DNA from: Isoetes taiwanensis
Lineage: Eukaryota; Streptophyta; Lycopodiopsida; Isoetales; Isoetaceae
DNA: 64,000 bases
Direction: 5' to 3'
NCBI GenBank assembly: GCA_021234155.1
Contig: JAJEKV010000071.1
Span: 3,718,483 to 3,782,482 of the forward strand
The notes below the pieces were generated by a model. The model did not search any database. It was not told the DNA's origin and worked only from the letters and a program-made list of their open reading frames with translations. The translations under genes and the position numbers were made by a program. Positions 721 through 62,589 of this stretch are shown here, piece by piece; within the stretch, counting starts at the first letter, position 1; each line of letters opens with the position of its first letter.

Positions 721-937
721 TGATAAGTCGGAGGTAAAGGCATTATCAGTTATCGCTCGAGAAGAGATGGTAAGCCCTACTTCACGTTCTTATGCGAATA
801 AAGTTATAAGATTGTTATGTAGAATCAATGGTAGAAACGTGGTTGTTTTGGTTGATTCTGGAAGCACTCATAACTTTATTTCTGCAGATCTAGCACATGA
901 TCTGGGGCTAGAATTGAACGAGGTGGCTCGTACGTGA
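640..937 (+). pseudogene. gypsy zinc knuckle and aspartic protease, frameshifted
   Basis: In the frame +1 relative to gag, residues RCGVVRHFARECTK match a CCHC zinc knuckle whose first cysteine is changed and whose usual Gly before His is Arg. About 50 residues later VVLVDSGSTHNFIS matches the retropepsin-like active site (D-S/T-G). The protease would cleave the polyprotein. The frame ends at 937 and the continuation is found in the next frame, so the protease is broken in its second half. Confidence 0.85.
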
Positions 938-2222: not shown

Positions 2223-2560
2223 GAGAACCGAGGTAATCAGCCTCAGGCTAGTGGTGGAACTCCAGGAAATTGGAATAGACGAGCAGCGAGTACGCAGGGT
2301 GTTACTGGTCCATGAAATGCTCGTACTGAGGAGAGGCCTGCACGGGCCCAAGCCGTTACACTAAAAGTATCAAAAGCGGAACCAGACATGCGCGCCTATG
2401 CTATTGGTGGAGATCCTCCAGAATACCTTGCTACCGACGTTATCCATCTTCCAGGTAGCATTCAAACGCAACCTCTATCAATGGTTTATATGTTTAATGC
2501 TAGTAGCTTAAACAATTATCATAGCATTGTGACAATGAAAAAAAAAATAATATGAGCTAA
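2223..2560 (+). other. gag-like debris joined to the gypsy RT; possible chimeric junction
   Basis: Directly after the RT the translation changes to a Gln/Gly/Asn/Arg-rich stretch (NQPQASGGTPGNWNRRAAS) with a stop, then RPARAQAVTLKVSKAEPDMRAYAIGG. This composition resembles the linker before a gag nucleocapsid rather than the RNase H expected after RT. I infer a junction between two retroelements or a deletion. No confident domain call. Positions 2380-2610 hold AT-rich sequence that could be the decayed end of the copia LTR that follows. Confidence 0.35.
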
Positions 2561-21849: not shown

Positions 21850-23900
21850 GTGAAATATTTTTAATTTTTAATGCAATCATGTTGTGCTGTTATAAAAAAA
21901 AAGTCACATTCTCGATGCAAATTTACTAACCCGGGAAAAAGTTGCAGTGCCAAAATGGTCCAAAATCCTGACATAAATCCAATTTAAATGAATGATGGTT
22001 TTTTGATGGTCTAAAACAATTGCAGGATGGAAGACTCTGACTTCTTTGACATGACATCTTATATATTTTGACCAGTGTATAAAATGTTGTTACGTCCAAA
22101 GTTTAACATCAAAGTTCCCATAGGATTTTTCCATGGTATCAGGTATCGCGGTTGGTACATCAGATCCCGGTCCACTTATTAATGGCATGTGACATCCCCT
22201 GTCTACGATGCTCCCATTGTATTGGAAGGCGGAGTTCACCCCCCTGCCAACCAAGCTGATAGAGGCCGTCCACCTGACACCAATCCTTTAGCAATGGATC
22301 AATGAGGAAGAATGGACGGGTCATCCGTCCCGTCTTCCCTCGGGACCGTCCTAGCTGCGGAAGCGTAAATAAATGTAAGCACATGATATCAAATGCAAAC
22401 AGAGTCACCTCGAAGGGTGACTAAACCATAGCATACATGTATAAGCACATCCACAACATCATCATCACATGGGAGATCCTACCTGAGACTCAGACTTCAG
22501 GGTATGGACTGACGGCTTGGGTCTCCAGAAACCATTGCAGACAGAATTCATGAGAGTGGATTGGGCTAGCATAGGAACATGGCTGTTGGGTAGTCCTCTC
22601 CATCCGCCCCTCCTGTGTACACTTTGCAGAACAGGTTGAAGAGACTTGGGACTGCACCGTAGCCTACCGGGTGCGTAGCCAGGGGCTACTACAGGGGTTT
22701 CATCTCCCCAGCCCCGATGAGGCAGGAAGGGGATCACCCCCTCCTGAGGCATGCATGCCCATCACAGGCGGCTAGAGGGCCACTGCCCGTCTTCGGCTTG
22801 AACCTCATTGAAGGTGACTCATCACCCAAGAGGTGTCGAGCTCATGCCTTGCCCACACGCAGTGGCAAGCCATTAAGCGTAGCCTGCTAAGATCCCTGAT
22901 AGGCTTTACACACCAGAGGGATCAGTCTGTAATGGGACAAGTCCTCCTTATTCCACTGTTCTAACCCCGCCACTCAAAACCAGACAGTCCCTTGTACACA
23001 GACCGCATTAATTGGGAATTAATGAGGCTATCTAGATGCATCTACTACTGAAGGTTTCAGGGTCTCTACCCCCCTTCCCAATACACAGGAGTGAGCATCG
23101 AATGGAACATCATCATCAAAGAACTGAGATACTGAATAATATCTAATCTTTCTACCTAAACATACATGGTTAAGTTCTTTAGTTAAGGCTTGTGATCTTA
23201 GGATCTATAAGGCTGCTAAAACTAATCTACCATGCTATCCTAGCTCATTGCCCGGCTAAAAGTTGGCATTGCACAACGGATCACAGGTTACCTGATCCCT
23301 GGCTTTCTCCTGCTCCTCGAATCACGTCCATGCCTTCGCTTGGGTTGAAGGCAACTGTTCCTGGAAGATCTGTTGTGCAAAGGCAGCTTGCCGGCGCCTG
23401 GCAATGCGAACTAGCTTCTTGGCTTGGCCGGAATGGCCCAAGGAAGCCAAAATGCGAAAATGGAAAAGGTTTAGAGTTTCCCCTTTTGTTCCTTTTACAT
23501 GAAACAAAGTTTAAATTGAAATGCACTTATTTGCTCCACACGCACTTCAAAAGGAATCTTTGAAAGATTCCCTAAAATTCCCTAAAAAAAGTCCATTTTG
23601 AAGGTTTGCTCGTGACAAGTGTGACAATTTAGTTAATTTAGGTACCTTTTTTGAGGGGTTGATTGAACATAGCTTCTATGCAAAAATATTTAACAGCTAT
23701 TTTCATCCTCCTAATTTGGAACAAAAAATAGTTACTTATATGAAGTGTAGCAAAAAAGGGGCAATAAAAAAAACAACAAGGGTAGTAGAGTGGCAAAGAA
23801 GTGATATATTCAAAGCTTGTGAAAATTTTACAAAATTATAAACAAAATTGTCAAAAATATAGGATATTTTGACAAACCCTCATCACCTGCACTTTTTGTT
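21850..23900. other. noncoding region, probable LTR-derived sequence
   Basis: TGTGACATCC at 22186 and the minus-strand TGTCACACTTGTCACG at about 23622 could be the ends of one LTR (about 1.4 kb), read on either strand. The inside is GC-richer than its surroundings and has no long ORF with a known domain. I found no matching 5 bp target duplication, so the solo-LTR call is tentative. 23.6-23.9 kb is AT-rich and probably belongs to the 3' flank of the DUF7869 copy B gene. Confidence 0.35.
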
Positions 23901-23934
23901 GTTTACATGTTTGAGTCATCGGACAAACTTACAT

Positions 23935-24094
23935 TTTGCAGCAATATCAGGATGCATGTCATCCTCAGACTCATTTAGTCCATGATCAGTAGAGACTTCA
24001 TCCTCACCTTCACTCTCAAAATGGATATACTCGAACGATCTTCTTCCTCAGTGTCTACAAGTGAGTCTTTATCATCATCTTTTTTGGCCGTCTA
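23935..24094 (-). pseudogene. 3' coding tail of DUF7869 copy B, separated by an insertion
   Basis: Read on the minus strand, this stretch encodes an acidic tail (KKDDDKDSLVDTEEEDRSS, then HFESEGEDEVSTDHGLNESE after one frameshift) ending at a splice-donor-like AAAT/GTAAGT near 23938. It lies exactly on the far side of the 7.77 kb TA-flanked element that cuts the gene at 31864, in the orientation expected for a continuation. Confidence 0.5.
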
Positions 24095-24115
24095 AGGGTG
24101 CAAAATCGGTACTGG
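24095..24115 (+). repeat. left terminal inverted repeat of the 7.77 kb element
   Basis: Pairs with 31843-31863, 17 of 21 positions identical. Core GGGTGYAAAATCG is shared. Confidence 0.65.
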
Positions 24116-24494
24116 ATAGCAGAATATCACCATCCGGACGCCGCTTACAAGTGCTTAAAATCGGCGTGTTTTAAACACGACGTGCGTGATTGATCAATTG
24201 ACATGTAGGGTGCGCGCCCGTCAAATGACAGGCTGAGAGAATCATGAGCTTGTTTGGTGCCGGAAACATGAATGCCTGTAGCCCGCCATATTCGTGGATG
24301 GCGGGCTAACCCATCTTGAATTCAAGCAAAATGGAGGGACTAATTGTTTCCAAGAATTGCCTGAACCGAAATTCAACAATTTGCCCTCACCCATTTTGCA
24401 AATACCGCAAACAGGGATAGATGAAACCCAATTCCTCTCCCGATCAGCTTTCTGAGCCATTGATGCAGCAAGGAAGAGAGATCGAGGCAAGAGA

Positions 24495-27134
24495 TTGTAT
24501 GCAAAGAAGGTAGCAATGAAGAATAATTCCCCTTCTAAAGATTCGCCTTCAAAGAAGAATAAGAAATTGAGACCGAAAGTGACCCTGAGAATAAGAGAAA
24601 TTTCAGGAGAAATTTATGAAGTATTCAACCAAATTAGTACAAATGTTGATGACAATGACAAAGGTCAGTATCCTTGATGTCTTCTTTGGAGGGCAAAGGG
24701 ATTTACCAATTGCTTCTACAAAGAAATCTAAGGTGTTACTATGGCCGAGCAAATGGTGAAGAATTTGAAGGAAACAATGCAAGAACATAAGTATGAGAGG
24801 AATCATGACATGCTTCGCGTGCAAGGAAGTCCACCCGGATAATGGCAAAGAAGCAGGTACAAATGGTGTCAAGCCATTGAATCAAACAGAAGTGGCAGAT
24901 TGTTTCGGCATCCCGGAAAAACAATTTCAAATGCTTTTCAAAGAAGGGTGCAAGCTAACAAAGGGGAAGGACCTTGGTCAATGTTCAGGAGGAGGAAGCG
25001 GATGGATAACATGTTAGATTACAATAGAGAAGCTGTTATCAAGTTAAGGGCCGAGAAAATACAAGAGTTTCTCCATACAAGAAAAGGCGTGAGGAGGTAT
25101 GTATCGAGAGCAGGAATAAAGATGGAACATCCAATTCACCTTCTTGAAGTCAGCCAAGTAAGTATTCATCCTATATTGTAGGGTTCATTATATGTAGCAT
25201 TTATTTGGCATTCACACGATTTCCCTGCAGTTGCAATTCTACCTCAGGTTTAGAGAGGAGAATCCTCATATCAAAATTGTATTGCAGACTTTTGAGAGGT
25301 TGAAACCGAGTTTTGTAAGGAGGATGCGTGAGAGGCATACATCTTTGTTGCATCTACCACTTGAAATTTGAATACATCATGCGAGGATTGAACGGCTCGA
25401 GAAAATCGGGTGGACTTCATGACAATTGCAACCGCCATTGTGAGATCTGTGGCCCCGCCCGTAATGTGCAGCCAAGGAGCATACAATCAAGTGCACCAGT
25501 GATTTATGGAGACAAGTGGTCCGGCAAAGAAAGGTGATGATGAGGAGTGGTTTGATCATAAGCGCTTGATGTTGGCGTGTAAAAATGTGGGTTGGATAGA
25601 ATTAGAAAATGTCCACAGGAAATGGATGGCACGGGTTCGCATTACTAGTTACTTGGAAGACATTTGAAAAGCAACACGTGGACCGGAGAGAATTCGGGGG
25701 ATCCAAGAAAGGCTTTGAGGTACAAACCTGTCTTGAGATTAGTACAGAAGGAGAGAAGTCCCAAAGAGTTTCAAGAGGATGTGAAGAAGGTAATATCAGA
25801 TTTTGTTCCACACAATTACATAGCACATTGGCAGGCCAATCAGTTTAAGCGTGTGTGTCATCATTTCGGAAGATACAATTGTATACGTTATTGACTTTGC
25901 AAAAAATTCTGACATCAAGATCCGAATGAGCCCCGAGTCAATGCAGCGGCATACAAACCAAGTTTCTATACTTGTTCACATAACATATAGACATGACAAA
26001 AATGCCGATATTCTGTTCCTATCTTGATTTAAGAAGACCGTCAAAAAAAAAAAAAAAGAACGTAAGATTGGAGCAGATCGAGGGAATAGATTCAACAATG
26101 GTAGGAAGATCATAAAAAGAGACTCACTTTTACATTTCGATGATAAAGTGCATGACTCATTATTTGTGGAACACGCCTACAAAAAGCATGTTGCATGGCT
26201 TAGGAGGAATGGGAAATAGAGTATGAGAAGCATTGGGTTTGGAGTGAAAACTTTTTTTTTTCTTAGGCGGTACTTCACAATGAATGACAAAGGAAATAGT
26301 GTGGAACTACTTTACACTTCGCTCATGGTAAAGGTGAACATGATGGTGCAGTCTTTGTTATCAAAAAGGTCGCTAAGTAAGGAACAACTCAAACCCAATG
26401 GTGTGCAAGCGAGGCATGCTAATATTGTAAAATTTACGTGTACATATTTGTGATCTACCGGTTGATGAAACAGATGAGATCAAAAAAGATATTTTTGGGA
26501 AATTGAACTGCTTTGTTGTGGCAAACATGGAAGAATATGAAATTGAAACACTTAAAAGCACAAAGAGGATTCATCGTATCGGACACATCGTGAGGAGTAG
26601 ACCAAAGCGGGCTTGCTCATAGATGCCCTGTCATGTTTCTCGCTTGTTTTGCATGGATCATAATTGGGACTCTGCATCAATACGTAGATTTGGAAAGTGG
26701 GAGGTAAGCTGACTTACAACTGGGGAGTTGAGAAGAAAAAGGAGACTCTTGAACAAGCCAATGAATGGATCAGTAATTTGGTAGAGGTAGGTGACAATTT
26801 TGGCAAAGTGAATCTTTGAGGTAGACAATTCAGGAGGGTGTGGACTTCTACATCCTCAAGTGCTGAGTAACCCAAATGCACACTTGAAGATTCATACAAA
26901 GATGGATAGGGGCAAAAATTTGGAGTGCATGAGGTTATCTTAAGTGGATTGTATTATCAATTCTTGGGTAATTTCAAGTACATGTTGCTCACTAAACAAC
27001 CCGAAGCCTCCGTGCACAGCCATGTGGTAAGATATTCTAAAATTGATATGGACAAAATAGAAGGCACAGACATGTACAAAATTTCACAGGAGACCCATGA
27101 AAAAATTATGGCAAGTCGCCCAATAACATTGTAA
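24495..27134 (+). pseudogene. transposase-like protein of the 7.77 kb element, decayed
   Basis: A conserved order of blocks known to me from uncharacterised transposon proteins of non-seed plants and invertebrates is present in shifting frames: a Lys-rich N-terminus; REAVIKLRAEKIQEFLHTRK (25.02-25.08 kb); FREENPHIKIVLQTFERLKP (25.25-25.31 kb) after an intron with GTAAGT/GCAG borders; a C-C-H motif (CCIYHLKFEYIMRGLN); VIDFAKNSDIKIRMSPESMQ (25.88-25.94 kb); DDKVHDSLFVEHAYKKH (26.14-26.19 kb); and GKGEHDGAVFVIKKVAK (26.33-26.38 kb, usually GKG.HDG.GA..KR). The spaced acidic residues fit an RNase H-like DDE/D transposase, which is inference. Many stops and frameshifts make it non-functional. Confidence 0.55.
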
Positions 27135-27658
27135 TTCTTTGACACTTAACCAAATTGATGTTATTCTTTTCAAGTGATTTGTTGTTCGAGCACCTAAGCA
27201 CGTAAGCACACATTTGTATATATATTATAATAATAGTGAGGATGCACAAGGGTGGTGTGCATGGACAGGTACTTCGAAATGAAGATTGAATTGTTGTTTA
27301 AGAATGTAGATTTGTGACATTGGAATAAGATTCAATTATTTATTTTGGTACCATCACTATCCCAACATTCTTGGCAAAATTATATTGTCAAGGCATTTCC
27401 TCGATGTGACATGTGTCAATTCGACTGGTCATACGAAATATTTAAGCCTGGTTACGAATTAATTGTTCCGCACGTGTGAGGTTTTTCATACAGCGGCGCC
27501 TAATGCGGGATTTAAGCACTAGGCGCCTAAGCGTAAGCTCTTCTCACAAGCTCACGCTCCACCCATTCCCCGCCCAATTCCTCCGCACTCCTTCCCAATC
27601 CGCCGCACTCCTTCCCAATTCCTCCGCACCCCGCCCAATCCGCACAATCCGCCGAAGC

Positions 27659-28050
27659 ATGAAGCGAAAAGCTAGCGAGGAGCCGGAGGTCACCTCCAAG
27701 AGGCGCTTACTTGGCGTCGAAGAGGTGTTCCCTCCACTCTTCCCATCTTTGCCTGATCTACTTGCCTCCTCTGCTGCCTCCTCTCCTGCCCACTCTACTG
27801 CCTCTCAATTTTCCGATTCCGATTCCAATTCTTCTGATTCCTATGAGGAATCAGAAAATGAGGAATCGGAACTTTCTTCGCAGGAATATGTCACTGCAGT
27901 TCTGCAAGGGTGGATAGAGGAAGAAGAAGAAGAAGACGAGTCTGATGAAGAAGTCCCTGAAGAAGAAGAAGAAGAAGAAGAAGAAGCAGAAATTGAAGAT
28001 GAATCGGCCGACTTTGCAGACTTCATGGCGCTCATAAATGGTATGCATGT
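27659..28050 (+). CDS. Ser/Glu-rich acidic protein, probable first exon
   Basis: ATG at 27659 (MKRKASEEPEVTSKRRLLG) begins with a basic, nuclear-localisation-like stretch, followed by a Ser/Pro region, a Ser/Asp/Glu segment and a pure Glu run ending DFADFMALIN. A splice donor AATG/GTATGC lies at 28040 and an acceptor GTTGCAG ends at 28120; the second exon is short or runs into the minisatellite at 28184. The open frame extends upstream to 27476 without an ATG-supported reason to use it. It sits inside the 7.77 kb element. Function unknown. Confidence 0.45.
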
Positions 28051-28183
28051 TTCATTTGTTTTCTTTAATCAATTTTTCATTTTCATTTGTTTAATCAATT
28101 TTTTGTTATTGGTGTTGCAGATGGAGAATGAAGGGCCTCCAGCTTGCCTCCGGCGTTTTTTTTTTTAATTATTCTTGCCTCCA

Positions 28184-28291
28184 GCAGACACCCCCTGAAG
28201 AAGACACCCCCAAGAAGACACCCCACGAAGACACCCCTCAAGAAGACACCCCCAAGAAGACACCCCCCGAAGACACCCCTGAAGAAGACAT
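28184..28291. repeat. GAAGACACCCC minisatellite
   Basis: About eight degenerate copies of an 11-15 bp unit (GAAGACACCCC with AAGAAG or TGAAGA spacers). Read on the plus strand it encodes repeats of EDTPKKTP/EDTPEED, so it may be a repeat domain of the acidic protein's second exon. Confidence 0.85.
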
Positions 28292-29197
28292 CGGTTCGAG
28301 GGCCAATTTTTTTGTAAAAAAATTTGTTCATATCCTGAAGACACTGGCTTGAGGGCCTTTTTTTTGTAAAAAATCTTGTTTATATAAAAAGTTTTTTGTC
28401 TCTATCAAAGTTTTTATTGTCTCTATCAAAGTTTTTTGTTTCTCTATCAAATGTTATTTTTGTCTATCTATCAAATATAGTCCATTCAGATTCTGCTTGA
28501 ATGTAACAGTGCTCTAGCTCTTTAATTAGTTTCAAACACTAAGCATTTTAATTAGTTTGATAGTGCTTGTGAGTAAACCTTTGGAACACACGACACTTAT
28601 GCAATAAACAGCTAGCTTTAAGCAGGTTATATAGCTTAACGTAAGAAAACCTTGCACCTTAAGCGCATGGCGGTAAGCACTTGATGACATTAACACTACG
28701 CTGGCGTTAAGCAACTACATACTTAGTAAGCATCCTTTGCATGACAATAAGCGAAGATTCGCCATTCGGACTCATACCGGACTAGCACTTGCGGGCAATT
28801 TTTTTTTTTAAGCACTTGATAAGTTTTTAAGCATCCCTTGCGGTCGGCATTGAAGTAGATATAAACAATATAGCAAAACTTATAGACAAGTCTGCCTTTG
28901 AACTACATAAACAATATAGCAAAAACATTCTTAAATTAAGATAAAGATGGTACATGAAAAGTGTAGGATTCCTTGGCCTAAATAAATGACAATCAGGCCA
29001 ATAATCATAAATGTCTCAGGCTTAATCACAGCAATGGAGAATGACAATCTTCATCACCATAAACCTTCTTCAATTCCTCCTTCACAAACCTATAGAACTG
29101 CAATTGTTTTCCAGAAAGTCTTTCCAAGCATAGCTTCATAATCTTTCTATCTGTCTTAGGCGGGGCTTGTATCGTGTGTGTTCTTCACCAAGTAACT
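28292..29197. other. noncoding spacer within the 7.77 kb element
   Basis: AT-rich; 28.38-28.48 kb has loosely repeated CTATCAAAGTTTTT pieces. No coding signal before the phosphatase-like gene. Confidence 0.5.
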
Positions 29198-29747
29198 TCA
29201 TTTTTTTCCTCGTCTTGGCCTGCGATTATTTCTTCTATCTTTGGGGTGAAATCTTGTTAGCACTTCATCATAGACATCCATCTTGAATGCAGGTACTAGC
29301 GAAGTTTCGAGGGATTTGCTAAGGTAAGACTTGTATATTGAATCATCAAGAAGCAAAGTCTTACCTTTGAATCTTGGGTATGACTCATATACTTTCCCAA
29401 GTGGCTTCATCATGGCCCGGACTGACCCAGGTTTGTTAGGGTGGTGAAAACTGGTCTTCACACATTTTTCCTGTCCCCATACAAATAGAAATCCGTCCCT
29501 CAAATCTGGACATAGTACTTGCAGCACATCTTCCACATTAGAGAGTTGCATTGATGACCATATACCAACACAACTTACAGAACAAAGTCTTCAAGAAGAA
29601 CACCGCTCGGGTGCGAATATCACTTTCTTTTACGCTAGTGTATGTCATTGTCAATCCTGATTCCAAGCGTATGTGTTCATTTGCACCAAATGTTTTTACC
29701 AACACACCATTTAAATCCAAGACAATGAGTTTATCTTTTGCTGCCAA
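29198..29747 (-). pseudogene. FCP1/NIF-type HAD phosphatase-like protein, frameshifted
   Basis: The minus strand from 29747 encodes KLIVLDLNGVLVKT, the HAD motif I of plant NIF-family proteins (DLNG variant), then after a single-base frameshift near 29570 VGIWSSMQLSNVEDVLQVL (motif II W-S-S), KPLGKVYE (motif III Lys) and KGKTLLLDDSIYKSYL (motif IV D-D). It ends in a very basic tail (RRNNRRPRRGKK). Family members dephosphorylate proteins such as the RNA polymerase II tail; the usual second Asp of motif I is Asn here, as in several plant homologues, so activity is uncertain. It is probably cargo of the 7.77 kb transposon. Confidence 0.65.
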
Positions 29748-29759
29748 ATCAATATTTAG

Positions 29760-30719
29760 TGCGTTGGAACATCGAATACCTACACAACAGGAATTACTAC
29801 ATGAATAAATAGATGAAGATGAAAATAAAAATGGGTTGAATGTGGAAACCTTTCAGACATCAGCAGGATTCTCGACCTAACGGAATCAACTGGTAATCCT
29901 ACGATTGAATGCAACAAAAGAAAATCAATAATATTCAATGTTTTAAGCAACACTATTTACGGGCTTGCCAAAGAATGCCCTGACTTTTCGGGGTTATTAA
30001 GGGCAGCAATCACTTGTTGAAGATCGGGCTCACCCGAAACTCGAGGGGCGATTCTACATTTTCTTGAGAACACACGCCGATAGGTGTGGTGTCATGATTG
30101 AGGCGCTTCCCGCATCTTTTGCATAGCTACTTCTTGTTCTCTTTCTTGTAGCTTTGAACAACTTCTTTGCTATCCTCTAACTTACCCCTCTTTGTTCTTA
30201 CGCCCTTTCCTTTTGGCAAATATTAAGCCCAAGTTGCCCTCATCCAGATGGAATTACTCCCTCAACTTCCTTAGGTGCTTCGATTGTGTACAATCCGGTC
30301 TATTGTTGTTTTTCCACAACCGGTCTTTGTGTTTATAACCTGGTCTTTGTGTTTACGACTTCTTCTATAGCTTCTTGGACAACTTCTTGGGTGGTGGTGG
30401 TGGTTCTGTTGCATTCAAATCGGATCACAATTGATTTGTACTCCTATAGGACTTTCTTGGTGTTGTGCATCTTCAAATGGCACCATTGTCCTTCTTTGAA
30501 CCCTGAAGGGTGAGACCTCAATTGCAGGACGGATTAACACATCATTTTTTGGTGTACTATTTGAAGCACATGCAACATGGCCAAAACCTAGCTCGTCAAA
30601 TACACCCTCTGGCACCTTTCAGGGCAACCATGAATACATTGTCCTCCTCTCAACAATGAACAACAAGCTATATGATACTCATGTTGGCAATTCGATTGCT
30701 AAACTTAACCTCGTAAGCT
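29760..30719. other. spacer between phosphatase-like and coiled-coil genes
   Basis: No clear domain. Short frames and possible splice signals exist (for example a Thr/Val-rich minus-strand stretch near 30.3-30.45 kb). It could hold small exons linking the two minus-strand genes; I cannot show it. Confidence 0.3.
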
Positions 30720-31714
30720 TTAGTGAATTCCGGTCCACATCTTTGAACATGTATAAAATGGATCTTCCACTAACAACTTATCTCGTATAATAGTAGAGAT
30801 GCTAAATGTTGCAGGAGTATCCATTTTCAGCTTCCACAAATTGTTTATGTAGAATTGCAGAAGTCTCTGTTCTTCTTCGAGAACTTTTAACTCCTCCTCA
30901 AGTTTGAGTTTACATTTGACCTGCTCATTAACAGATGTAGGGTTCATTGCTTTTTGTACCTTGTTCCTGTGCCAAGTTTCCATCTGGACAGTCTGCTCCA
31001 AATCTTTAATTTACGCCTCCAACTCACGGTTTGGATTAAGCTTGAACTCCTCACGCTTTTTGTAGCCAAATCATTTGTGGCCATCTCTTAAAGCTGTTCT
31101 CGACCTCTTCCAACATCTTTTTCTGTAATTCAGAGGCCTTCTCATTGCCTTTCAGCTCACTTCCTACTGCTTCCAGATTCTTTGTGATAAGTAAAACTGA
31201 TTTTCCAATCTCCTGTACTGCATTCTCTAAGGTTTTTATGTTTTCATCACATGCACTGATCTCATTTGATCCAGCTGCCACCTTTGGCTTTGCCTTCATT
31301 TGATTTTCCTAACATGTGCTACAACATCCGCCTCTGTTTTTACTTGTCTATTGTTGTGGTATCTTTGGCATTGCCACGACAAATGCAGCCCGCTTTTTAC
31401 TTTGTGTTCCTCCTCGGTGCAACTATTGATCTAGTGTAATTTTCAAGCGCCAAAAGCAAGGGCGGTTGCTTTCTTACTTCTTTGTTGGGACAATTCTTGT
31501 AGATTTTTTTTGAGTGTTTGAACTTCTCTTGAAGATGCTCCTTTTTGCGGTGCCATTTTATCTTTCCCTTGTTCAACTTCTTTGTCCAAACAAGATCCCA
31601 ATCTCGATCCGTGACATTATTTTCCAACCAAGTTTCTTCCTCGTAGGGCTTCACCCCCGAATTGCACAGACCTCTGATGCTGTGAAAATCATCCGCGCTC
31701 CATGCCTCCATCAT
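30720..31714 (-). pseudogene. coiled-coil protein encoded next to the right TIR
   Basis: The first exon begins at an ATG near 31714 (MEAWSADDFHSIRGLC), about 150 bp inside the right end of the element, and is basic (LNKGKIKWHRKKEHLQEKF). Two further stretches read as heptad-rich helix: 31.29-31.05 kb (IKTLENAVQEIGKSVLLITK) and 31.00-30.72 kb (KLKLEEELKVLEEEQRLLQF). They lie in different frames, so introns or frameshifts separate them. It could form a dimer or tether; no family is recognised. Confidence 0.45.
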
Positions 31715-31842
31715 CAACAGTGAAACACGATCACGAGTTTCGCGCCCGGCGAAAAAGGAGGGAGAAGGGTGTGACCAGACTTCGACGTCCGCGAAGTTTC
31801 AAAAGACTTAAAGTGCTTAAACGCGGCTTAAAAAGTTGTACC

Positions 31843-31863
31843 CCACTAGCGATTTTACACCCC
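31843..31863 (-). repeat. right terminal inverted repeat of the 7.77 kb element
   Basis: Inverted partner of 24095-24115; TA follows at 31864-31865. Confidence 0.65.
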
Positions 31864-31865
31864 TA

Positions 31866-34835
31866 ATTCACATGCCGACCTTATTAAAGTTTGAGTGATC
31901 GCACGTAACTTTTTAGCAGCAGTCAGAACAAAGTCATATGCAAGAACCTTTACTTCAGCTAGATCTACGATACTAGTGTTTGCTTTAGACTTTGCTCTCC
32001 TTCCCACTCCTGTTTTTACCATTTTTAAACTATAACTTCCACTGAAAGCATTGGCAGCACTTGTTCTCATCCATTGCACTTTTAATTGAGTGGGAATTCC
32101 ATCCTCTCTTGTTACCTCCAATACTTTAGCTAGCCAAAATGGCTTTCCAGTTTCATCATTATCAGCTGGGACAGCTACGACCATTCCTTTTCGAATCTAC
32201 GAGGAGATCGAAACGGATGCAGAAACTTGTTGTGTCGTGCATCTGGGGCCAGTGTACATGACTCTGTCATCTTCATCTGAGCTAGGCATTATCTGTACAT
32301 GTTCTTCTTGATTCTCAACTTGCATAGGCAGAGTTTGCCTAGATGGCCAGTTGAATGTAACTGGTCTTTGACCTTGTAATAAAGCTTGTAACATGTCACG
32401 TTGCCGAGAAAAAAACTGAGGCCACCATAAAGCATCTGCCTCCCCAAAGTGGTTAGAGCATGACTGAATACTTGTCTCAACATAATCCAATGATTTGTTT
32501 GAGTCAAATGCTCTTCCCTCCTTTTTACTCTTTGTGATTTCTTTCAAGCTGTTTAGAGGCATTTGCTCTGCAGAGAGCATAGAAGTAGTATCGGGGATGG
32601 TGTGAATGAATTGAATACCAGCTGCTGGCTGCTACTGCAAGGATGTGGCATATTTCTTTCCTTGTAAGATGGCCTTGCCATCCACAAGTGAGAATTTGAT
32701 CTGATGCTGAAATGTAATGTTTCTCAAGGGCTCAATTGCACAGCGACCCAATTGATCTCTCCGAAAAATCCATTCCTTGAAATCATAAGTTTCTTCCAAT
32801 AACTCGATGTTTGGTCGAGGATTGTAGGAATCTTGGATCCTCAATCATTGCTGGCAGGCTGAGAGCTTTTTTTCGAGCAAGACGTTTAGAGAACCTACTG
32901 AACATCTGATCAATTTGATCGTGTGTATGACCAACAAGCAGGAAACCAATCTTCACCTTCTTGAAGATTTATTTCTCAACTAGCATGGCACAGTAAGCAA
33001 ACAATGCATGATTCTTATTTTCTCTTGTCGTATTGTCTAGCTGAAGATATAAAACTGGTGGTATACGTTCTAGACTGGAAAGAATCTTTTTCAATATTGT
33101 GATAGTGAGATTTGGATTAGCATGAATGTTTGGATAGTTCAAAAATGCCTTGCAAGATAGTTTCCCGTTAAATACCATAGCACCAACGACATTCAGGTGT
33201 ATGAAATCTTCTTCAGGGGCATCCTTAGGCACATTGACAAAGTGTGGTAGGGTGGTCTTCTTCTGGTCCATTCCATCAATAAAAACCGATATGTAGTTGA
33301 GTGGTTGTTCCAGTGCCTTCTTCCTGTGTTTTGTCAATTTTCTCCTTTCCAAAGATTGTTGTTCTCTGTGCTTGTTCAGTTTCTCTTTCAATGCATCTGA
33401 AATGAAAATACGTTCAGGACAAAAACCTACCATTGAGTAGAACTAGGCAAGAGTACGTTGTGGAAGCTTACTTTTAGTGTGAAGTGTCCTTGCATTTTGT
33501 CTCTGAGCTTTTAATTCAGAGCATGTAGCACAAACAGACATCCAGTGCTTTCTAGGAATAGACACGCGGGAAAACTCTTTTTTTCAGAGCACAGTGAAGT
33601 AAGAGTAGCATACATGGCGTTCTCCAGCCTCAACACACATATCCTTATAATTATTGTAGACTTCACGTTTCGTGAAGTTGTCACTCAAGTGGTACATAGG
33701 GCTGTTAGGGAGTTTCTCGCATGACTCCTTGAAGAAACCTTCCATCTAAGAAACACATTGAAGGGCATGAATTCTGGATATACTTCCTGAATGGCAGTAG
33801 TCATTAATGCCTGGATTCTTGTCAAGACTTTTCTTCAGGCGGTGAAGTCGTCTGCTGCCTAAAGCATGAATCAATTTAAAGGCCGTTTGACAGACGCTGT
33901 GGCCACCAGCTGTGTAAGTAAACTTATCACCATAATCTGCCCTAATATTGAAGGCTAAGTAGCCCCTTTGGTCTAACAAAGTCATTGAACTGTAATTATC
34001 ACGAATCAACCTCAATTCCTTTAGTCCAATCTTGAGCAAACAACGTTGAAAACAACAGTGCTTTGTATATGTTGCCCTCAAGTGACCCTCGTCCATAAGT
34101 TTCTTTCTTCTTTGCGATGTACAAGCTTTCTTGTGTAAGTTTCGCTTAAGGTTTTTTCTCGCAGGAGCTTTGAATTCGAACATAGAGTCTTGTGGCTTTG
34201 CTACGTCATCGTCTGAGAGACCAACATGAGGTGTTTCTTCGTCTGGCACGGGAGCAACGGATGGTGTACTAGTAGATGCTGAGAGGTTTGGTGTGGGCAA
34301 GTCTTGGAGGGAGTTGCTTTGCCTTTCTCTGGGAAAAAGTAGTCGAGGTTGGTGACGTAGTTGAGCAGCTCCTGAAATGTCATAGAATACAGGAGTTGCG
34401 TGGCGCTGACTGCTCCCACTTAGTGTAGTATCAAGTAGTGAGATGGATGGAGTTGGAGTGATTTGCCTCCGGGAAGCTATCTACGCTGGACTATGAGACG
34501 GACTAAAACGTAACCGGAGGAGGAGTCGAGCTCGTCTCCTCCCTTCTTTGAGTGAAATGAATGGGTGGAGGAAAGTTTCATTTGTTCCGTGGGCTGCGGT
34601 GGAGTAAAAACGATTGGTGGGGGCAAACGACGTTCAGGAGCAGGCGGTGGTGGAGTAAACTGAACTGGTGGTGGAAGCCGACGTGTACAAATGCCAGGGC
34701 TGGGGCTTTGAATATCAGAGTCAGAAGTTTCGTGGCTACTACCTGGGGACAAGGTGTGAAAACCATTGGAGGAGGGAGCCTGCGAGTAGGACGTGGCGGC
34801 TCTGGAGCTCTTTTCTCTCCAGCCATAGTCGCCAT
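31866..34835 (-). pseudogene. DUF7869-family transposase-like protein, copy B
   Basis: Starts near 34835 (ATG) with a Pro-rich region holding three RRLPPPxxFTPP repeats, the last two in a second frame. Next come a Cys/His region with GYLAFNIRADYGDKFTYTAG (34.0-33.9 kb), a CxxC motif (SVCATCSELKAQ, 33.52 kb), an intron (GTAAGC near 33462 to TTTCAG near 33400), then IDGMDQKKTTLPHFV (33.29-33.24 kb), LQLDNTTRENKNHALFAYC (33.05-32.98 kb) and GFLLVGHTHDQIDQMFSRFS (32.94-32.88 kb). A C-terminal FWLAKVLEV...LKVQWMRT stretch resembles a BAH/chromo-like module. There are stops near 33585 and 32970 and frameshifts. The 3' end is cut by the 7.77 kb element. Its start faces the ParB/methyltransferase gene 343 bp away. 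Confidence 0.7.
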
Positions 34836-34904
34836 TTTTCTTAGAACAAGTAGCGTCTGACTCAGATAAATTTATCGATTACATGTAATCTGACATGAGC
34901 GAAC

Positions 34905-34982
34905 GGTATAACTTTATACAGAGATGGTATAAATTTATACAGAGAAGTATAAATTTATACAGAAACGGTATAAATTTATATG
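34905..34982. repeat. palindrome block 1: four sites at about 21 bp spacing
   Basis: Copies of GGTATAAATTTATACC (some with one to three changes) start at 34905, 34926, 34946 and 34967, spacings 21, 20 and 21 bp. They lie in the 343 bp between two divergent start codons (34835 minus, 35178 plus), so they may be operator sites for both genes. Confidence 0.9.
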
Positions 34983-35260
34983 AAAACTTACAAATTTTCG
35001 TATAGGAGACTTTATGGAAAACCCTATACGGAAAGGCACAGAACAGAAGTACTTAAGCCCGGCGGTGGCCGGTCTATTTTCTATATACGTTGTTTGGATT
35101 CGAAGCCGCTCGTGCTCCGCCTTATATACTCACCCCAATTTGCTCTCCCGAACAGCTATAAGCGAATCTATACAGTCATGGCCACGTAAGTCTCTAATCC
35201 GTACCATTCTAGTTCCGCATCTCTTTTAATCTTCTTGCTTTTGTTTTGTCTTGAGTCTTT

Positions 35261-35672
35261 GGTATAAATTTATACTGAGTCTAAGGTTCCACGGTATAAA
35301 TTTATGCCATTGGAGAACTCCTTCGGTGTAAATTTATACCGCGAGGGTTCTGCAACGGTATAAATTTATATCGCTCGTGCTCAGATGGTATAAATTTATA
35401 CCATTGCAGAACTCTTTTGGTATAAATTTATACCGCGAGAGTTCTGCAACGCTATAAATTTATACCGCTCGTGCTCAGACGGTATAAATTTATACGGTTG
35501 CCGAACTCTTTCGGTATAAGTTTATACCAAGAGACCACAGTCGGTAAAATAAACACAGTTCTTAAACACTGCGGTATAAATTTATACCGTAAGAGTATAA
35601 AATCATACTGCTGTCTTCTCTGTAGGTATAAATTTATACCGGGAGACCAGCTCCTCGGTTTAAATTTAAATC
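35261..35672. repeat. palindrome block 2: 14 sites in intron 1, about 31.5 bp spacing
   Basis: Copies of GGTATAAATTTATACC start at 35261, 35293, 35325, 35357, 35387, 35419, 35451, 35481 and 35513 (252 bp over eight steps, mean 31.5 bp), then degenerate or intact copies at about 35543, 35573, 35594, 35625 and 35657. A 94 bp unit with three palindromes is repeated (35293-35386, 35387-35480). The whole block lies in intron 1 (35186-35873). Confidence 0.92.
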
Positions 35673-36274
35673 GTGGGTGGAATGTCTAAAGAAAGGTCCG
35701 GAATCATACTTTTTTAATGATAGTGTTGTGTTTTGGAGTCTATTTCCACAGGAAAAGGGTAAAATAGCCCGAAATTGAGGTCCTTTAAGCCATTTTTCTT
35801 AGAACTAAAGTGGTTAAAATTGTGTTAAAAACGGTTTTCGTGATGTAAAATGGGTTTTTTTATGCCTTTTCAGCCCCAAGATTGTCATCAAAGGCAAGGG
35901 ACAACAATCATCGTCGAAGATACAATCTTACGAACTGAAAGATGTGATATGGTACATCCATAGGGGAGCGAGAGAATGCGACCCCACTGATGCGTACCTG
36001 TAGGCTGTACTTATGCAGTAAGACAGGAAGGGGGAAGTTTAGGACGGAGGATTACTACCCCGTCGGTGAAATGACAAGTTCAACAGCTACAGAAAAGGAG
36101 GACGAGCTTCTCATGAACTGCGTGAACGACGACGGGGATGTAGAGTACATTCTGAACAGCAGAATGCTTCGTATCAGCATGTGCAAGCCTAAAGACGTCC
36201 ATGATTACATTTCGGATAATTACAAGCTTGGTTATGTAAGTATGCGCACATCTCTTTGTTCTTTGTGGCTTTAC

Positions 36275-36290
36275 CGTATAAATTTATACC
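36275..36290. repeat. single palindrome copy in intron 2
   Basis: CGTATAAATTTATACC differs from the consensus by one base and lies in the 85 bp intron 36236-36320. Confidence 0.9.
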
Positions 36291-37346
36291 GACAGCTGCC
36301 TAATTTACCCTGCACTACAGGACATAGTGGACATTTTGTCATCAGTGACACTCTGTGACGAGAAGGTTATGGTCAAAGGTCTGTGGTACCCGCGTCCTAA
36401 GGATGACGTGGAGAAAGAAAGCGAACCGGAAGAGGAACAAGAAGAGGAAGAGGAGGAAGTGGTGGTGATGAAAGGAAAGGGCAAGAGACAAGCCTTGGTT
36501 GTAAAAACTCAGGCCAAAAAAAAATCAAGAACCACAAAGGCCTTGACAATAGAGGAATCAGCAGAAGCGCTTCAAAAGGCTCATGAAGCAGATATTGTTT
36601 TGAGGCCCTCAGACAAATTGAGTGCTATTTTAAAAAGGGTTAATGAGACCAAGCTGTTAAAGCAGACTATTTCATTGACACTGAGCACGATCAAGAGGCC
36701 ACCAAAAACTGAAGATGGGGTCAGAGTGCTTCAGGTGAGGAAGTTATACGCGGCACATGTGGCTATCCTAAAGCAGAGAATGCGAAGGAATCCACATGCA
36801 CATGTGTCGCCACTTGTTATGGTTGATAGAAGTTAGATCCAGGAACTAAAGCATTACAGGAAGGCTGACTTCGAGGACTACACGTATTATGTTCTTGGCG
36901 GCACACACAGTTACAAAGCAAGGAAAGAACTATCTAAAGAAGAAAGCCAAAACGAGGTCTGGAAGAGCGTGGAAGCGCACATTTATGTGGGGCTAACAGA
37001 CGAAGAGGCGAAAGTCATTGCCGTGAGCCATAACCTCGACAATGATTTCAGGTTAAAGATGAACCTTATAGACAAAATCCGCTTCATGCACCGAGAGTAT
37101 GTCGAGTTCAAACAAATGCATGGAGAGGAAATTAAAAAACAGAAGAACAAGCTCCAGGAACTTCGCGAAGCCTGTGTGACTGAGTGCTGCCTAAGTTATG
37201 ATTCTGATAAGAAGCCCATCATGGCTGTGAAGCAGTACGACAACTACTTCCAACTTGCTTTCAGAGATGGCCAAGTAAGTACAACTTTTAAATTAGTCTC
37301 TCAATAGTCTGTTAAGCGTGGTTTAAACGATGTAGCAGCCTGGAGC

Positions 37347-37454
37347 GGTATAAATTTATACCAACCACCGGAAGGGTACCACTGTTTAAATTAATAGCGC
37401 AGCCATGCACGGTATAAATTTATACTGTGCCAAGGCACGGTATAAATTTATACC
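37347..37454. repeat. palindrome block 3: three sites in intron 3
   Basis: Copies start at 37347, 37411 and 37439, all inside intron 3 (37275-37534). Confidence 0.9.
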
Positions 37455-38344
37455 GTGGCTTAAGCTCTGTCACGCTCTGTTGTTTTACAACCATAGCCAT
37501 TTGCACTAAACTACTTGACTTCGACCTTTAACAGGTGTGGGATCTTCAAGAAAGAATTTTTTGCATGTTCGAGGATGGTGAACTTAAGGAACAAACTGAA
37601 AAAAACCGAAAAAAAACTAGTGAGACAAAGCAAAAGAACATGAACATTGTACCATGGACGCAAGTACAGGGTCTAAAGGGCAAGGAAATTTTTGTGCGTC
37701 TCTTAGAGAAAGTTGTGGCCAAAGAATTCACTCTAGATGAAATGGCTAAGGAGGCTAAGACGTAAGCCTCATTTGCTTCATCGTGTACTTCTTTTTCTTC
37801 ACTTTGAATTACAACTTTTTTCTTCTTCCAGCCAGAAGGACATTGTCACCTCCCAGTCCGAGTTAATGAAGCAACTAAACCTAGAAGACTGGGCGGAGTG
37901 CAAGCTTCTTTACCCAACTTGTACGACAGACATCACAATCAGAGAGCACGCAGTTAACTTCAGTGGCTGGGTGAGTTTTGCAGAAAACATGTTTTGTCTT
38001 TGTGCCTTTGTCTCACTCTTCTCTTACAGAACAAGAAGAAAGGGCTGCCAACAGGCTTTCTGAACCTGGTTCGTAGGGCCAAAGAGGAAAGGCAGAGACT
38101 GAAGGCCATTGAACAGGGAAAAGAAGTCGGCTCTAGCAGTTTTGACAATAGCTACGAAAGATTCACTACATTTGGACAGGATTGCTTGTATAGGGTTGTA
38201 CAGGGTGATTGCACCAGGCTGGCGACAATGGTGGACAAGCAAAACTTCACATTGTGCACAGCCGATATTCCTTATGGATTCAAAATTAAAGATAGCACCA
38301 TTGTGAAACTTCACATTGTGAAAAATGAGATCAAAATTGACTAA

Positions 38345-39758: not shown

Positions 39759-39760
<2 letters not shown>

Positions 39761-39841
<81 letters not shown>
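39761..39841. repeat. (TC)n microsatellite, about 40 units
   Basis: An unbroken TC run of about 80 bp. Polypyrimidine tracts of this kind often lie in plant promoters; no gene start was found adjacent. Confidence 0.98.
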
Positions 39842-53785: not shown

Positions 53786-54459
53786 AGTTGCTTTGTCGAA
53801 AAGTATGTTACTCAATGTAGATGCCTTGTTGGGCGACACACATGACACAACTACATTGTAGATAGTTGTACACAATTGGAATGCTCCCTTGCATTGTAGT
53901 TCTTTCAGAGTGTTATTTAGCTAGATGGTGCTTAACAATTCGATAAGATGAAATCAAGTTAAATTGAAACATACTAGAGCAATACCAGAGAGCTCAATTG
54001 CACATGACAACTAACTTAGAAATGTGAGTTAAATTTATGCTGTGTAGGTTGACATGAAATGTTTTTGCCGCTTCATATTGGTGGAACTGAATGTCTAATT
54101 GAAGGCACTCAACAAACAGTTTAGAGATGTGTATTCGTTATAGTCAAATCTTGCAGACAAATGTTTGGAAACAAACATGAAATTTGCCAATTTAATTCCA
54201 CATATAATATCTTCCTTGAAACATCAAATGCAAAATATTAACATATTATCATCTCCAATATCTATAGTGAATAAGCTTGTTAAGGTTTAAATGCCTAAAC
54301 AAGGAGAAGGTTGCCCAATGTTTTTTTTTGTCACGGTTGCCCTTAGGTTGGGTTTGGAAATTGTAAAATAGGGCACGTGTTTTTTAGCAATGGTGTTCTG
54401 GTTTTGGTTTTTGTGTTGGGCCTTTTTTTTTGCAGTTTTTCTCCTGCTGTAACCGCCGG

Positions 54460-56118
54460 ATGGAGGTGCGCCTGTCGGAAATGGGTCTTCTGTGGCTGGC
54501 GAATCCGGACAGGTGGTCGAAGGTACAGCTGGGCTTCCGGGATGTTTGGAGTTGCCATTTGGAGTCTTTTCTTCTGTATCTGTTAGCTGTTGGATGGCGG
54601 AGACGGCTTGTTCAGTTGTGGGATCTTCAGGTAAATGAGATTTTGCTTGCAATTCTGCTTGCCAGTATGATGCTTCGTAGGCTAGCTAGGAACCCAGGGC
54701 CGTTTGGTTGCGTGGATGAGGAGGGCCGTCCTCCAGAGAGCAGCTCCGTTGCTGCTGCTAGAGCAGTGAGACAAGACATTGCATCCCATGGAGATGGGCT
54801 ATTTCACAGATCTATGTTCTGTGAGGTACCTCCTACTGTGGAGGGGCTGTCCATTCTTGCTGATGCTGCCCAGGATATAGCAGGGGCAGGTAGAAAGAAG
54901 GGCCGTCCAAGGAAGGACCCTTTGGAGAAGGAATGGGAGTTATGGTTGAAGGAATTGAACAAGAAAGAGAAGGCTGAATTAAGAGAGAAGGAGAAGAGGG
55001 CAAAGGAGGAGGGGAAAGCAGATAGAAAGAGAGCTAGATTGGAGAAACAGAAGGACAGGTTGGAGAAGGAGGCTGCTGCTAAGGCACAGAAGGAAAAAAA
55101 GAAGGCTGAGGATGCCATGAAAAAGCAAAAGCGAAGTGGTAAGAGAGGAGTTCCGGATGTGGAGAAGTCCACAGTGACAGATTTGAGCGTCACTGTTAGT
55201 GTTGCAGGTGCTGACATTTCAGAAGCTGTGTACATTGGAACCTGCAAGTTCTTGGATGAGTACTGTATTGCCGGCATTGTGGCTCAAGAACGAGGCAGTG
55301 AGTTAGATCATTTGCATATTCAAGCCACCTTCAGAATGGAATTGACGACGCCTACGTCTGTGAATTCTCGTCTGAAGAATTGGCTGGACTGGGCAGATCA
55401 TAGACCACCTGGCAGTGTTATCATGTGCAAAGCTTTAAAGGATACTCGTCTCCACTGCTTCGAAGGCATGGTCGGGTATTGTCTTAAGGATATTGGTAAG
55501 CTACACTTCCGTTATCACATAAAGGAAGTGACTGCGGAGCAGATGGAAAGAGGGAAGAATTTATACGCTTTGTACGGTGCTGGGGAAATCAAAAACACTG
55601 TAGTTCTGGATAATAGAAATCTTATGCAGAGGGCTAAACATTTTATTCTGTACCATGGCCGAAAACAGCGAACTCCATCCCTTTGTTATACTATTGCAAG
55701 AATGTTGAGAACGGGGGGCTTTATTTTGTCGAGTGCTTGGGTGTTGCCGCTAAACGTTGCATACGTGAGATATGAGAGAGTAGAAGCGGCATGGAGGCTG
55801 ACTTTAGATCCATCTCATGCTTCCATTAAAGACGTGAGGTGCGTGATCTATGGTATCCCAGATGGAACCGCTCCTGTAGAGCGTGTCGGTAAGAGGAGAC
55901 GCAGGTTTTGGGACGATTACATTGCCTCCAGAGAGCTCGATGAATTGGATGGTTCTGATAGTATGCTGGATGGTGAGAGTGGAGGAGATGAGGAGGGGGG
56001 AGGTGAAGAGTACAGAGAGGAGACGCCTGGTTTTATTGCTCCTGTGAACGCTGATGTGTTGCCTTTCCAAGATTACATTTCCCTCGATTTAGATGATAAC
56101 ACGCTTGCTATCTCTTGA
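54460..56118 (+). CDS. Replitron-like Y1-HUH endonuclease (transposase/Rep)
   Basis: A 552-codon open frame with no lesion. Counting from the ATG at 54460: residues 143-152 GRKKGRPRKDP, an AT-hook-like motif; about 157-225 a Lys/Glu coiled coil (KAELREKEKRAKEEGKADRK); 255-345 a Rep-type HUH domain with YIGTCKFLDEYCIAGIVAQE, the HUH motif LDHLHIQATF near 281-290, and the catalytic-tyrosine motif GYCLKDIGK near 339-346. A region of about 120 residues (oligomerisation-like, RTPSLCYTIARMLRTGGFIL) and an acidic tail follow. No helicase follows the Tyr, unlike Helitrons and CRESS Rep proteins. HUH plus a single Tyr matches Replitrons, a group reported as abundant in non-seed plants. The enzyme would nick one DNA strand and become linked to it. 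The open frame begins further upstream at a TTTTTTTGCAG acceptor, so an upstream exon is possible; another candidate start is ATG 54669. Confidence 0.72.
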   Translation: MEVRLSEMGLLWLANPDRWSKVQLGFRDVWSCHLESFLLYLLAVGWRRRLVQLWDLQVNEILLAILLASMMLRRLARNPGPFGCVDEEGRPPESSSVAAARAVRQDIASHGDGLFHRSMFCEVPPTVEGLSILADAAQDIAGAGRKKGRPRKDPLEKEWELWLKELNKKEKAELREKEKRAKEEGKADRKRARLEKQKDRLEKEAAAKAQKEKKKAEDAMKKQKRSGKRGVPDVEKSTVTDLSVTVSVAGADISEAVYIGTCKFLDEYCIAGIVAQERGSELDHLHIQATFRMELTTPTSVNSRLKNWLDWADHRPPGSVIMCKALKDTRLHCFEGMVGYCLKDIGKLHFRYHIKEVTAEQMERGKNLYALYGAGEIKNTVVLDNRNLMQRAKHFILYHGRKQRTPSLCYTIARMLRTGGFILSSAWVLPLNVAYVRYERVEAAWRLTLDPSHASIKDVRCVIYGIPDGTAPVERVGKRRRRFWDDYIASRELDELDGSDSMLDGESGGDEEGGGEEYREETPGFIAPVNADVLPFQDYISLDLDDNTLAIS

Positions 56119-61789: not shown

Positions 61790-62589
61790 TTTATTCCTTG
61801 TGATGTATAATCTAAAAGGCAAAAGCCCGAGAACTTTGTATACCCAGAGAGTCTTTTCAGTACTACTCTGTTGTAGCATGCCAAATATCCAGCAGATCTT
61901 AAAGTAAAAACCTTTTTTCCAGCATCCATTCTGCTATAGGAATGAGGCCACAGGTCATGGCCATCTGTTTGCCCTAATTTAAGAAGAGAAATATGACTGT
62001 AAAGTTACCCATGAAGCTATCCTCAGCGGACCAGCTGTTTTTGGCTAAATCCTAAAGGACAAGCGCCAAAAATCCTTCTATATCTTAGGTTACCATACTA
62101 AAACGTGTATAGCATAACTAGTTTTGTATAGTTAGGTAGAATATTAAGTATATTGATGTATTCCGAGCCTAAAATCCATCTACATTCATAAATGCAATGT
62201 AAAATACTATCTCCAATTCAGGTATGTAGTCAGTCATATACTCTGGAAATTTAGAGAATATTTTCAACATTATCATTATAAAGATGGCTTATCCCCTATT
62301 AAATACACGTGTCAAGTGGATATTAAGACCTCTGGTATTTAGCAAATATCAAACATAAACCAGTGGTAAACTTCCCCCATTTAGAGAAACTTACATGTTG
62401 CCTAGTCTAAAGAAGTTAAACTCTTAGTAACATTTGAAGTCCTAGGACTTGTCTTATGGATGTGATCCAAAATCTTACTTGAAATATTCTCAATGGTATA
62501 GCATGTCTTTAAGTAACTATGTCTTTAGCATGTCTTTAGCAGGTCTTCCCTCAACCTTGAGTTCCCAAAACTCCCCACGGACAACCGCA
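61790..62589. other. spacer and junction with the copia fragment
   Basis: AT-rich with no gene. 62.50-62.60 kb contains GCATGTCTTTA/GCATGTCTTTAAG repeats and GC-richer sequence that replaces the end of the copia RNase H; this may be the start of another repeat. Confidence 0.4.

Follow-up and report, generated by a model that had tools for sequence, protein, structure and literature searches.

The window analysed here is a 64-kb stretch of the quillwort Isoetes taiwanensis, taken from an assembly of 1.658 Gb in 1110 contigs. It holds two genes arranged head to head: gene 1 on the minus strand, which encodes a DUF7869 protein, and gene 2 on the plus strand, which is predicted to end in a DNA methyltransferase. 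Their start codons are separated by 343 bp, or by 352 bp with the alternative ATG of gene 1, so the 343 bp and the divergent order given in an earlier note on this DNA hold. The two genes belong together in a DNA transposon about 8.5 kb long, bounded by terminal inverted repeats and present in many copies in the quillwort genome; the copy in the window is a dead relic of it. A short palindrome is repeated between and within the genes, and what it may do for the element is the main question of the discussion below.

The ends of the element were obtained from an all-against-all comparison of copies found through clusters of the palindrome, which gave terminal inverted repeats of 30 bp, AACAARGTTTAAAATGAAACGCACTTATTT. 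With up to two mismatches allowed, these repeats occur genome-wide at 936 + 948 and 523 + 474 places, and the controls gave 0. Seventeen elements are bounded by the repeats at both ends. The complete copy C1039 measures 8529 bp, has terminal repeats that differ from the reference at 0 and 1 of 30 bases, and is flanked by ATTG; the complete copy C16b measures 8601 bp. Target duplications are 4 bp long. When 20 end pairs were hand-picked from the exact-match lists, 18 were found by script to have perfect 4-bp duplications, with diverse bases duplicated; a 19th (C656, TAAC) is duplicated as judged by eye, the script having been anchored three bases early, and the last agrees in 3 of 4 bases. False end pairings used as a control match at 4 bp in 4 of 380 cases. 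Among the first six copies inspected by eye (C16a, C17, C2, C16b, C8 and C1039), C17 is without a target duplication. A 5-bp duplication starting with T, as seen in three of the first copies, was considered and rejected, since the 20 further pairs fit 4 bp. Two features of class II elements, terminal inverted repeats at both ends and a target duplication of fixed length, are found in this family.

The two genes are also systematically linked. The counts of adjacency that follow are taken among the matches listed, on subsets made of the best-scored or the first places, and are lower bounds. When 100 exact gene-1 places were compared with 227 merged gene-2 places, 40 pairs within 20 kb were divergent (the window is one of them), none was convergent and 2 were in tandem; 31 of the 40 divergent pairs are 1.7-3.4 kb apart. 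An independent test, which used Pfam models in place of the family's own sequence and took 150 methyltransferase and 150 DUF7869 matches as its input, found 22 divergent, 1 convergent and 1 tandem pairs, against a chance expectation of 0.5. Furthermore, the exact gene-1-side repeat stands in the correct orientation 4.7-11.8 kb upstream in 27 of 47 gene-2 places (located on contigs up to C922 by a 29-base pattern with up to two mismatches), and in none of the 47 was a wrongly oriented or behind-lying repeat seen within 15 kb. Of the ten palindrome clusters retrieved, C4, C16b and C13 show the divergent gene order around a palindrome array, C16a, C8, C2 and C5 have neither gene, and C14 has part of gene 1 only. 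In C7 nothing more than a 31% match to exon 2 was seen, and in C17 nothing more than a distant gene 1 match at 26%.

The earlier note had proposed that the two genes make up one element, had suggested a search for adjacent and divergent copies with shared ends, and had held that the idea fails if other copies are never adjacent. Within this genome the search succeeded, and the composite idea survives because the pairs are systematically divergent; linkage, terminal repeats and 4-bp target duplications all speak for a single element. Two other explanations of the locus were rejected: that two unrelated transposons came to lie side by side by chance, on the strength of both linkage tests, and that the DNA is a bacterial contaminant, on account of the GT-AG introns and the copies on many large contigs.

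The palindrome is 16 bp long, GGTATAAATTTATACC, with a conserved core GTATAAATTTATAC, and contains TATAAA on both strands. At up to two mismatches there are 19 in the 64-kb window, where 100 shuffles gave an expectation of 0.03. All of them fall between 34905 and 37454, distributed over the gap between the genes and introns 1, 2 and 3 of gene 2 (4, 11, 1 and 3, respectively), which is where the earlier note had placed them. The exact palindrome occurs 7218 times genome-wide and its reversed control 0 times, so that palindromes arising by chance were rejected from both the shuffles and the control. All 17 repeat-bounded elements hold palindromes, 5-23 each, and none was seen in the flanks. The unbiased part of this set consists of the 11 elements chosen by their ends alone, every one of which has palindromes.

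Fifteen of the 17 elements are gene-poor, with no gene 1 match and no complete gene 2. Seven of these are without a trace of either gene in tblastn searches, six retain a stretch 28-34% identical to exon 2, and two a stretch 58% identical to exon 7. Because the six (C64, C186, C581, C678, C889 and C207) keep such a distant exon 2 stretch, a diverged older family probably stands behind them. Outside the arrays, the 15 gene-poor elements match C1039 over 183-646 bp on the gene-1 side and 64-95 bp on the other side, and three of them have one further match each, of 50-111 bp. In 10 of the 17 elements a palindrome is located 485-578 bp from the gene-2-side end. In the two complete elements the gene 1 half is free of palindromes, all of which lie in the gap and the gene 2 half; within the latter, those of C1039 occupy the introns and the 3' end.

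The spacing of the palindromes is periodic. Among 137 spacings of up to 70 bp, from 14 sequences with related arrays, the best period is 10.4-10.6 bp (R 0.59) near phase 0, as if the sites sat on one face of the helix like the site of a cooperatively bound protein. In the intron 1 array (35261-35640) successive spacers run in opposite orientations, as in GCGAGAGTTCTGCAAC and ATTGCAGAACTCTTTT, which makes the array a series of longer inverted repeats as well.

The DUF7869 label that the earlier note gave to gene 1 is upheld by a strong match to the Pfam family (Table 1). Gene 1 is the probable transposase of the element. A single-sequence AlphaFold model of the protein has a predicted local distance difference test (pLDDT) score of 45 and shows, at low confidence, an order of strands and helices compatible with an RNase H fold. 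Segments of gene 1 have a ratio of nonsynonymous to synonymous divergence (dN/dS) of 0.18-0.39. No relatives of DUF7869 were confirmed in viral contigs, and the word itself is absent from the literature searched, a range outside which most subscription papers lie.

The last part of gene 2 is best seen in the less damaged copies, where exon 6 is followed by a palindrome-bearing intron and then by exon 7 (DAFSGTGITA...VSVDID, motif I). In C1064, DIPYGF of exon 6 comes before DAFSGTGITA of exon 7; motif IV thus stands ahead of motif I, which is the order of a permuted beta-class DNA methyltransferase. Exons 6-7 of C1064 match PF01555 (N6_N4_Mtase, E 4.3e-11), the gene 2 methyltransferase matches the phage DNA methyltransferase family phrog_498 (E 1.7e-14), and the best solved structures for exons 6-7 are CcrMI, MboIIA and RsrI, of which CcrMI and RsrI are adenine enzymes. 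These better copies confirm the prediction that gene 2 ends in a permuted N6/N4 DNA methyltransferase. The middle of the gene is less clear. The exon 3 region has a conserved GG-T/N-HS-Y/F-KAR motif and a weak match to phrog_723, "ParB-like partition protein", with E 0.012 here and E 0.013 in a 57% identical protein of a sister family. The earlier note had described gene 2 as a ParB-like region fused to a methyltransferase with a D-x-P-Y motif; the methyltransferase stands, with DIPY and PF01555, and the ParB part comes down to this motif and the weak matches. Searches of NCBIfam and of solved structures with the ParB-like region gave nothing useful, no relatives of the exon 3 protein were confirmed in viral contigs or prokaryotic genomes, and exon 2 of C1039 has no Pfam match above the cut-off.

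The exon 3 core is under extreme purifying selection. In eight distant pairs compared over 135 codons there are 51-61 third-position differences against 5-8 at the first and second positions together; two other pairs are close (third positions differ at 10 and 18 sites), and the C16b sequence spans 75 codons. The dN/dS was calculated from matches of at least 70% identity without stops, with 2 to 6 copies per segment (3 to 6 for those of gene 2) drawn from C1039, C1064, C1078, C16b, C4, C13 and the window. It is about 0.01 in the exon 3 core and ranges over 0.09-0.24 for the remaining gene 2 exons analysed, with 0.13 and 0.24 for the methyltransferase exons; of the 11 segments compared, none has a lower dN than the ParB-like core (0.014). 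The core is also free of stops in 125 of the 150 best-scored genomic matches, a set biased toward good matches. By this conservation, the spread of the element has probably depended on gene 2 for a long time. Synonymous divergence between C1039 and C1064 is saturated in the exon 3 core, against 0.08 for one segment of gene 1; between C1039 and C1078 it is low in both. Since the halves disagree in some pairs, an exchange of halves between lineages is suggested. A sister family is present at C976:453000-454400, where an open frame is 55-57% identical to the exon 3 core, about 3-4 kb from a DUF7869 match at C976:457327. The palindrome was not found there at up to four mismatches in the 1.4 kb seen, and the sister family may have another target sequence.

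The copy in the window is summarized in Table 1. The earlier note held that both outer ends are lost. On the gene-2 side neither the terminal repeat beyond 38296 nor exon 7 (motif I) was found in the window, and similarity to the element stops just past DIPYGF. The gene-1-side end, however, is present: element positions 1-587 align to it with 87.7-90.8% identity, and its terminal repeat has 2 mismatches in 30 bases. This end was cut off and not lost, because a later nested element separates it from the remainder, which aligns from element position 607 on. The nested insertion is no part of the transposon. It breaks into the element close to the 3' end of gene 1 and is bordered by CTAA (24092-24095 and 31863-31866), or TAA, and by eye its flanks match the uninterrupted C1039 (GTCTAA then TTCACATG, vs GTCTAATCCACATG). 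By alignment to C1039 the C-terminal end of gene 1 would lie at about 23918-24089 on the minus strand. Gene 1 is frameshifted in this copy and has stops, and gene 2, with at least six exons and GT-AG introns, has one frameshift and one in-frame stop.

Table 1. Coordinates of the features of the transposon copy and of the insertion within it.
Feature	Position in window	Strand	Basis or remark
Gene-1-side element end	23503..24089		Terminal inverted repeat 23503-23532; blastn of C1039, C16b, C1078 (element positions 1-585 to 588)
Nested insertion, 7.77 kb	24096..31862		Begins GGGTGCAAAATCG, ends CGATTTTACACCC; break in element alignment
Gene 1, DUF7869 protein	31863..34826	-	PF25273, E 7.3e-50; divergent copies elsewhere
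4 palindromes, divergent promoter gap	34905..34982		Spacing 20-21 bp
Gene 2 exon 1	35178..35185	+	ATGGCCAC
11 palindromes, intron 1	35261..35640		Mostly 30-32 bp spacing
Gene 2 exon 2, domain of unknown function	35874..36235	+	Frameshift near 36003
1 palindrome, intron 2	36275..36290
Gene 2 exon 3, acidic linker and ParB-like region	36321..37274	+	GGTHSYKAR motif; one in-frame stop
3 palindromes, intron 3	37347..37454
Gene 2 exon 4	37535..37761	+
Gene 2 exon 5	37832..37970	+
Gene 2 exon 6, methyltransferase motif IV	38030..38296	+	DIPYGF

The nested insertion has short inverted ends, GGGTGYAAAATCG, and one of its frames resembles, weakly and below threshold, an NLI-interacting-factor-like phosphatase (PF03031, E 0.042), perhaps a captured fragment of a host gene. 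Elsewhere in the window, the plus strand at 54388-56118 has a 576-residue open frame with a match to the HUH endonuclease domain of Replitrons (PF21859, E 1.5e-18), by this match a Replitron-type element, and the frames at 901-2364 (plus) and 62517-63959 (minus) read like what we take to be Ty3/gypsy and Ty1/copia polyproteins, respectively. There is a long run of CT dinucleotides at about 39760-39840. Scans of the window with Rfam models and for tRNA genes gave nothing.

Transposons with a second protein that alters DNA modification or counters silencing are known from several systems, including the KDZ transposons with TET/JBP genes, TnpA of Spm and VANC of VANDAL elements. Some of these act through repeated short motifs; their proteins are unrelated to those described here, and none is known to be an N6/N4 methyltransferase. 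The closest counterparts are in algae. According to the consulted part of one report, algal transposons, including a Sola1 element, carry ParB-like/methyltransferase genes on the strand opposite the transposase gene, with 4-methylcytosine (4mC) or 6-methyladenine (6mA) as the predicted products, and the authors suggest that the protein binds and modifies the element's own DNA (PMC12477816). The earlier note knew of no eukaryotic mobile element described with its combination of genes; the kind itself is on record in these algal transposons. The Isoetes element shares with the algal ones an N4/N6 methyltransferase gene opposite in strand to the transposase gene within one transposon. With regard to the ParB-like domain reported there, gene 2 shows the weak phrog_723 matches and no match to ParB_N. 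The Ectocarpus element, as given in the same part of that report, is 21.5 kb long and encodes a protein of 1104 amino acids (PMC12477816); the Isoetes element is 8.5 kb long, resides in a vascular plant, carries a DUF7869 gene and has reached a very high copy number. It also has a palindrome array common to complete and gene-poor elements, unlike what the consulted text of the algal report describes, in whose main text the string "palindrom" is absent (PMC12477816).

Other comparisons are looser. Sola elements, in the consulted part of PMC10741241, have 4-bp target duplications and terminal inverted repeats, are mostly 2-9 kb long, and occur in moss and uncommonly in flowering plants. The Isoetes element resembles them in its duplications and inverted repeats, a likeness drawn from the description of Sola without Sola sequence. 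Phage fusions of ParB_N with an N6_N4 methyltransferase, such as gp25 of the Acidithiobacillus phage AcaML1, have the same order of domains by name and the same PF01555; unlike in gene 2, ParB_N is significant in gp25 (E 9e-8), and the N-terminal parts show no profile-level match. The proteins of two further phage loci (L086 and L088) have no ParB_N. In dinoflagellates and charophytes, retrotransposons carry cytosine methyltransferase genes, as described in the consulted part of PMC5890265. They too are mobile elements with a DNA methyltransferase that may modify their own DNA; unlike gene 2, theirs are, in that part of the source, C5-cytosine enzymes of host origin.

The best explanation of the whole, to which we give a probability of about 0.5, is that a palindrome-binding methyltransferase marks a transposon that is moved by gene 1. 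Gene 1 would be a DDD/E cut-and-paste transposase. The gene 2 protein would bind the palindromes, probably cooperatively, as is proposed because the spacings follow the helical repeat, and would methylate adenine (or N4-cytosine) at or near them. Such a mark would keep the element's promoter active against host silencing, or license or time transposition, or both, and the gene-poor derivatives would keep palindromes and ends in order to be served in trans by both proteins. As a mechanism, self-marking by way of the palindromes is the best we can infer, and the self-methylating element imagined in the earlier note is plausible; nothing speaks for its other suggestion, a segregating element. A stronger version, a complete self-marking system in a vascular-plant transposon, would have the DNA-binding methyltransferase (of adenine or N4-cytosine) and the palindrome, in helically phased arrays, act as enzyme and address label. 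The thousands of label copies would then form islands of a bacterial-type mark by which the family stays expressed and mobile, and the derivatives would survive by the label. We hold this version tentatively, and the odds are somewhat against it.

Several observations weigh against self-marking. Gene 1 or a host factor could just as well be what binds the palindromes. Six of the 17 repeat-bounded elements were reached from palindrome clusters (five) or via gene 2 (one), and the 11 chosen by their ends have short flanks that total 468-599 bp per element. The arrays behind the spacing peak are related, and the peak is broad (R 0.56 at both 10 and 11 bp). The usual motif IV is DPPY, in place of which gene 2 has DIPY. 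DUF7869 as a transposase rests on linkage, the structure of the ends and the pLDDT 45 model, and PDB fold searches with the AlphaFold models (pLDDT 45 and 46) gave no E below 0.001. The ParB homology of the middle of gene 2 is weak and not established: Pfam ParB_N has no match in the window, C1039/C1064 or the sister protein, and its search of the genome gave a single match elsewhere, with E 1.5; the best Pfam match of the ParB-like region, below threshold and absent from the sister protein, is to the unrelated IgA0_D2 (E 0.003); further weak matches of comparable E point to families without a known function; and a profile comparison with 75 phage ParB-methyltransferase proteins did no better than shuffles.

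The same palindromes can be read in other ways. They may be sites of the gene 1 transposase, with the methyltransferase as a separate accessory acting elsewhere, for example on replication timing or host DNA. Gene-poor derivatives need the transposase in trans and have kept palindromes in 15 of 15 cases, internal or subterminal repeats serve as transposase sites in other DNA transposons, and the site found 485-578 bp from the gene-2-side end in many elements would suit this role. The complete elements, however, have no palindromes in the gene 1 half, and a location in the gap and gene 2 half fits regulation by or for gene 2 better; we regard this explanation as rather unlikely. Gene 2 might instead act mainly by ParB-like bridging or spreading on parS-like palindromes, in looping, cohesion or end pairing, with methylation secondary. 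A 16-bp palindrome in phased arrays would suit such a protein, as would the weak ParB-like matches, which fall on the same position in two proteins with 57% identity, and the lowest dN of all segments in the ParB-like core, but neither ParB_N nor the profile comparison supports it and the methyltransferase exons are under purifying selection as well, which leaves it improbable. The least probable proposal makes the palindromes promoter or enhancer modules for a host factor, unrelated to the proteins of the element. Their place in the shared promoter gap and the introns, and TATAAA on both strands, would agree with such modules; their retention in all 15 gene-poor elements, seven of which have no trace of either gene, and their absence from the flanks examined would not.

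If self-marking by the gene 2 methyltransferase is indeed what the palindromes serve, the element bears on the question of whether eukaryotic mobile elements mark themselves with bacterial-type DNA methyltransferases. Within the literature searched, the element is new in its vascular-plant host, in having DUF7869 as partner and in the palindrome array that complete and gene-poor elements share, although priority is not certain. The algal cases are reported without a cis target in the consulted part of PMC12477816, and the Isoetes palindrome is a putative target. Because this putative target is short, exact, present in thousands of copies and kept by the derivatives, self-marking becomes directly testable at GGTATAAATTTATACC; the Isoetes taiwanensis assembly was itself built with Nanopore reads, according to the consulted part of its description (PMC8566536). 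The finding extends this type of element from algae to a vascular plant, and DUF7869 gains a likely role as a transposase.

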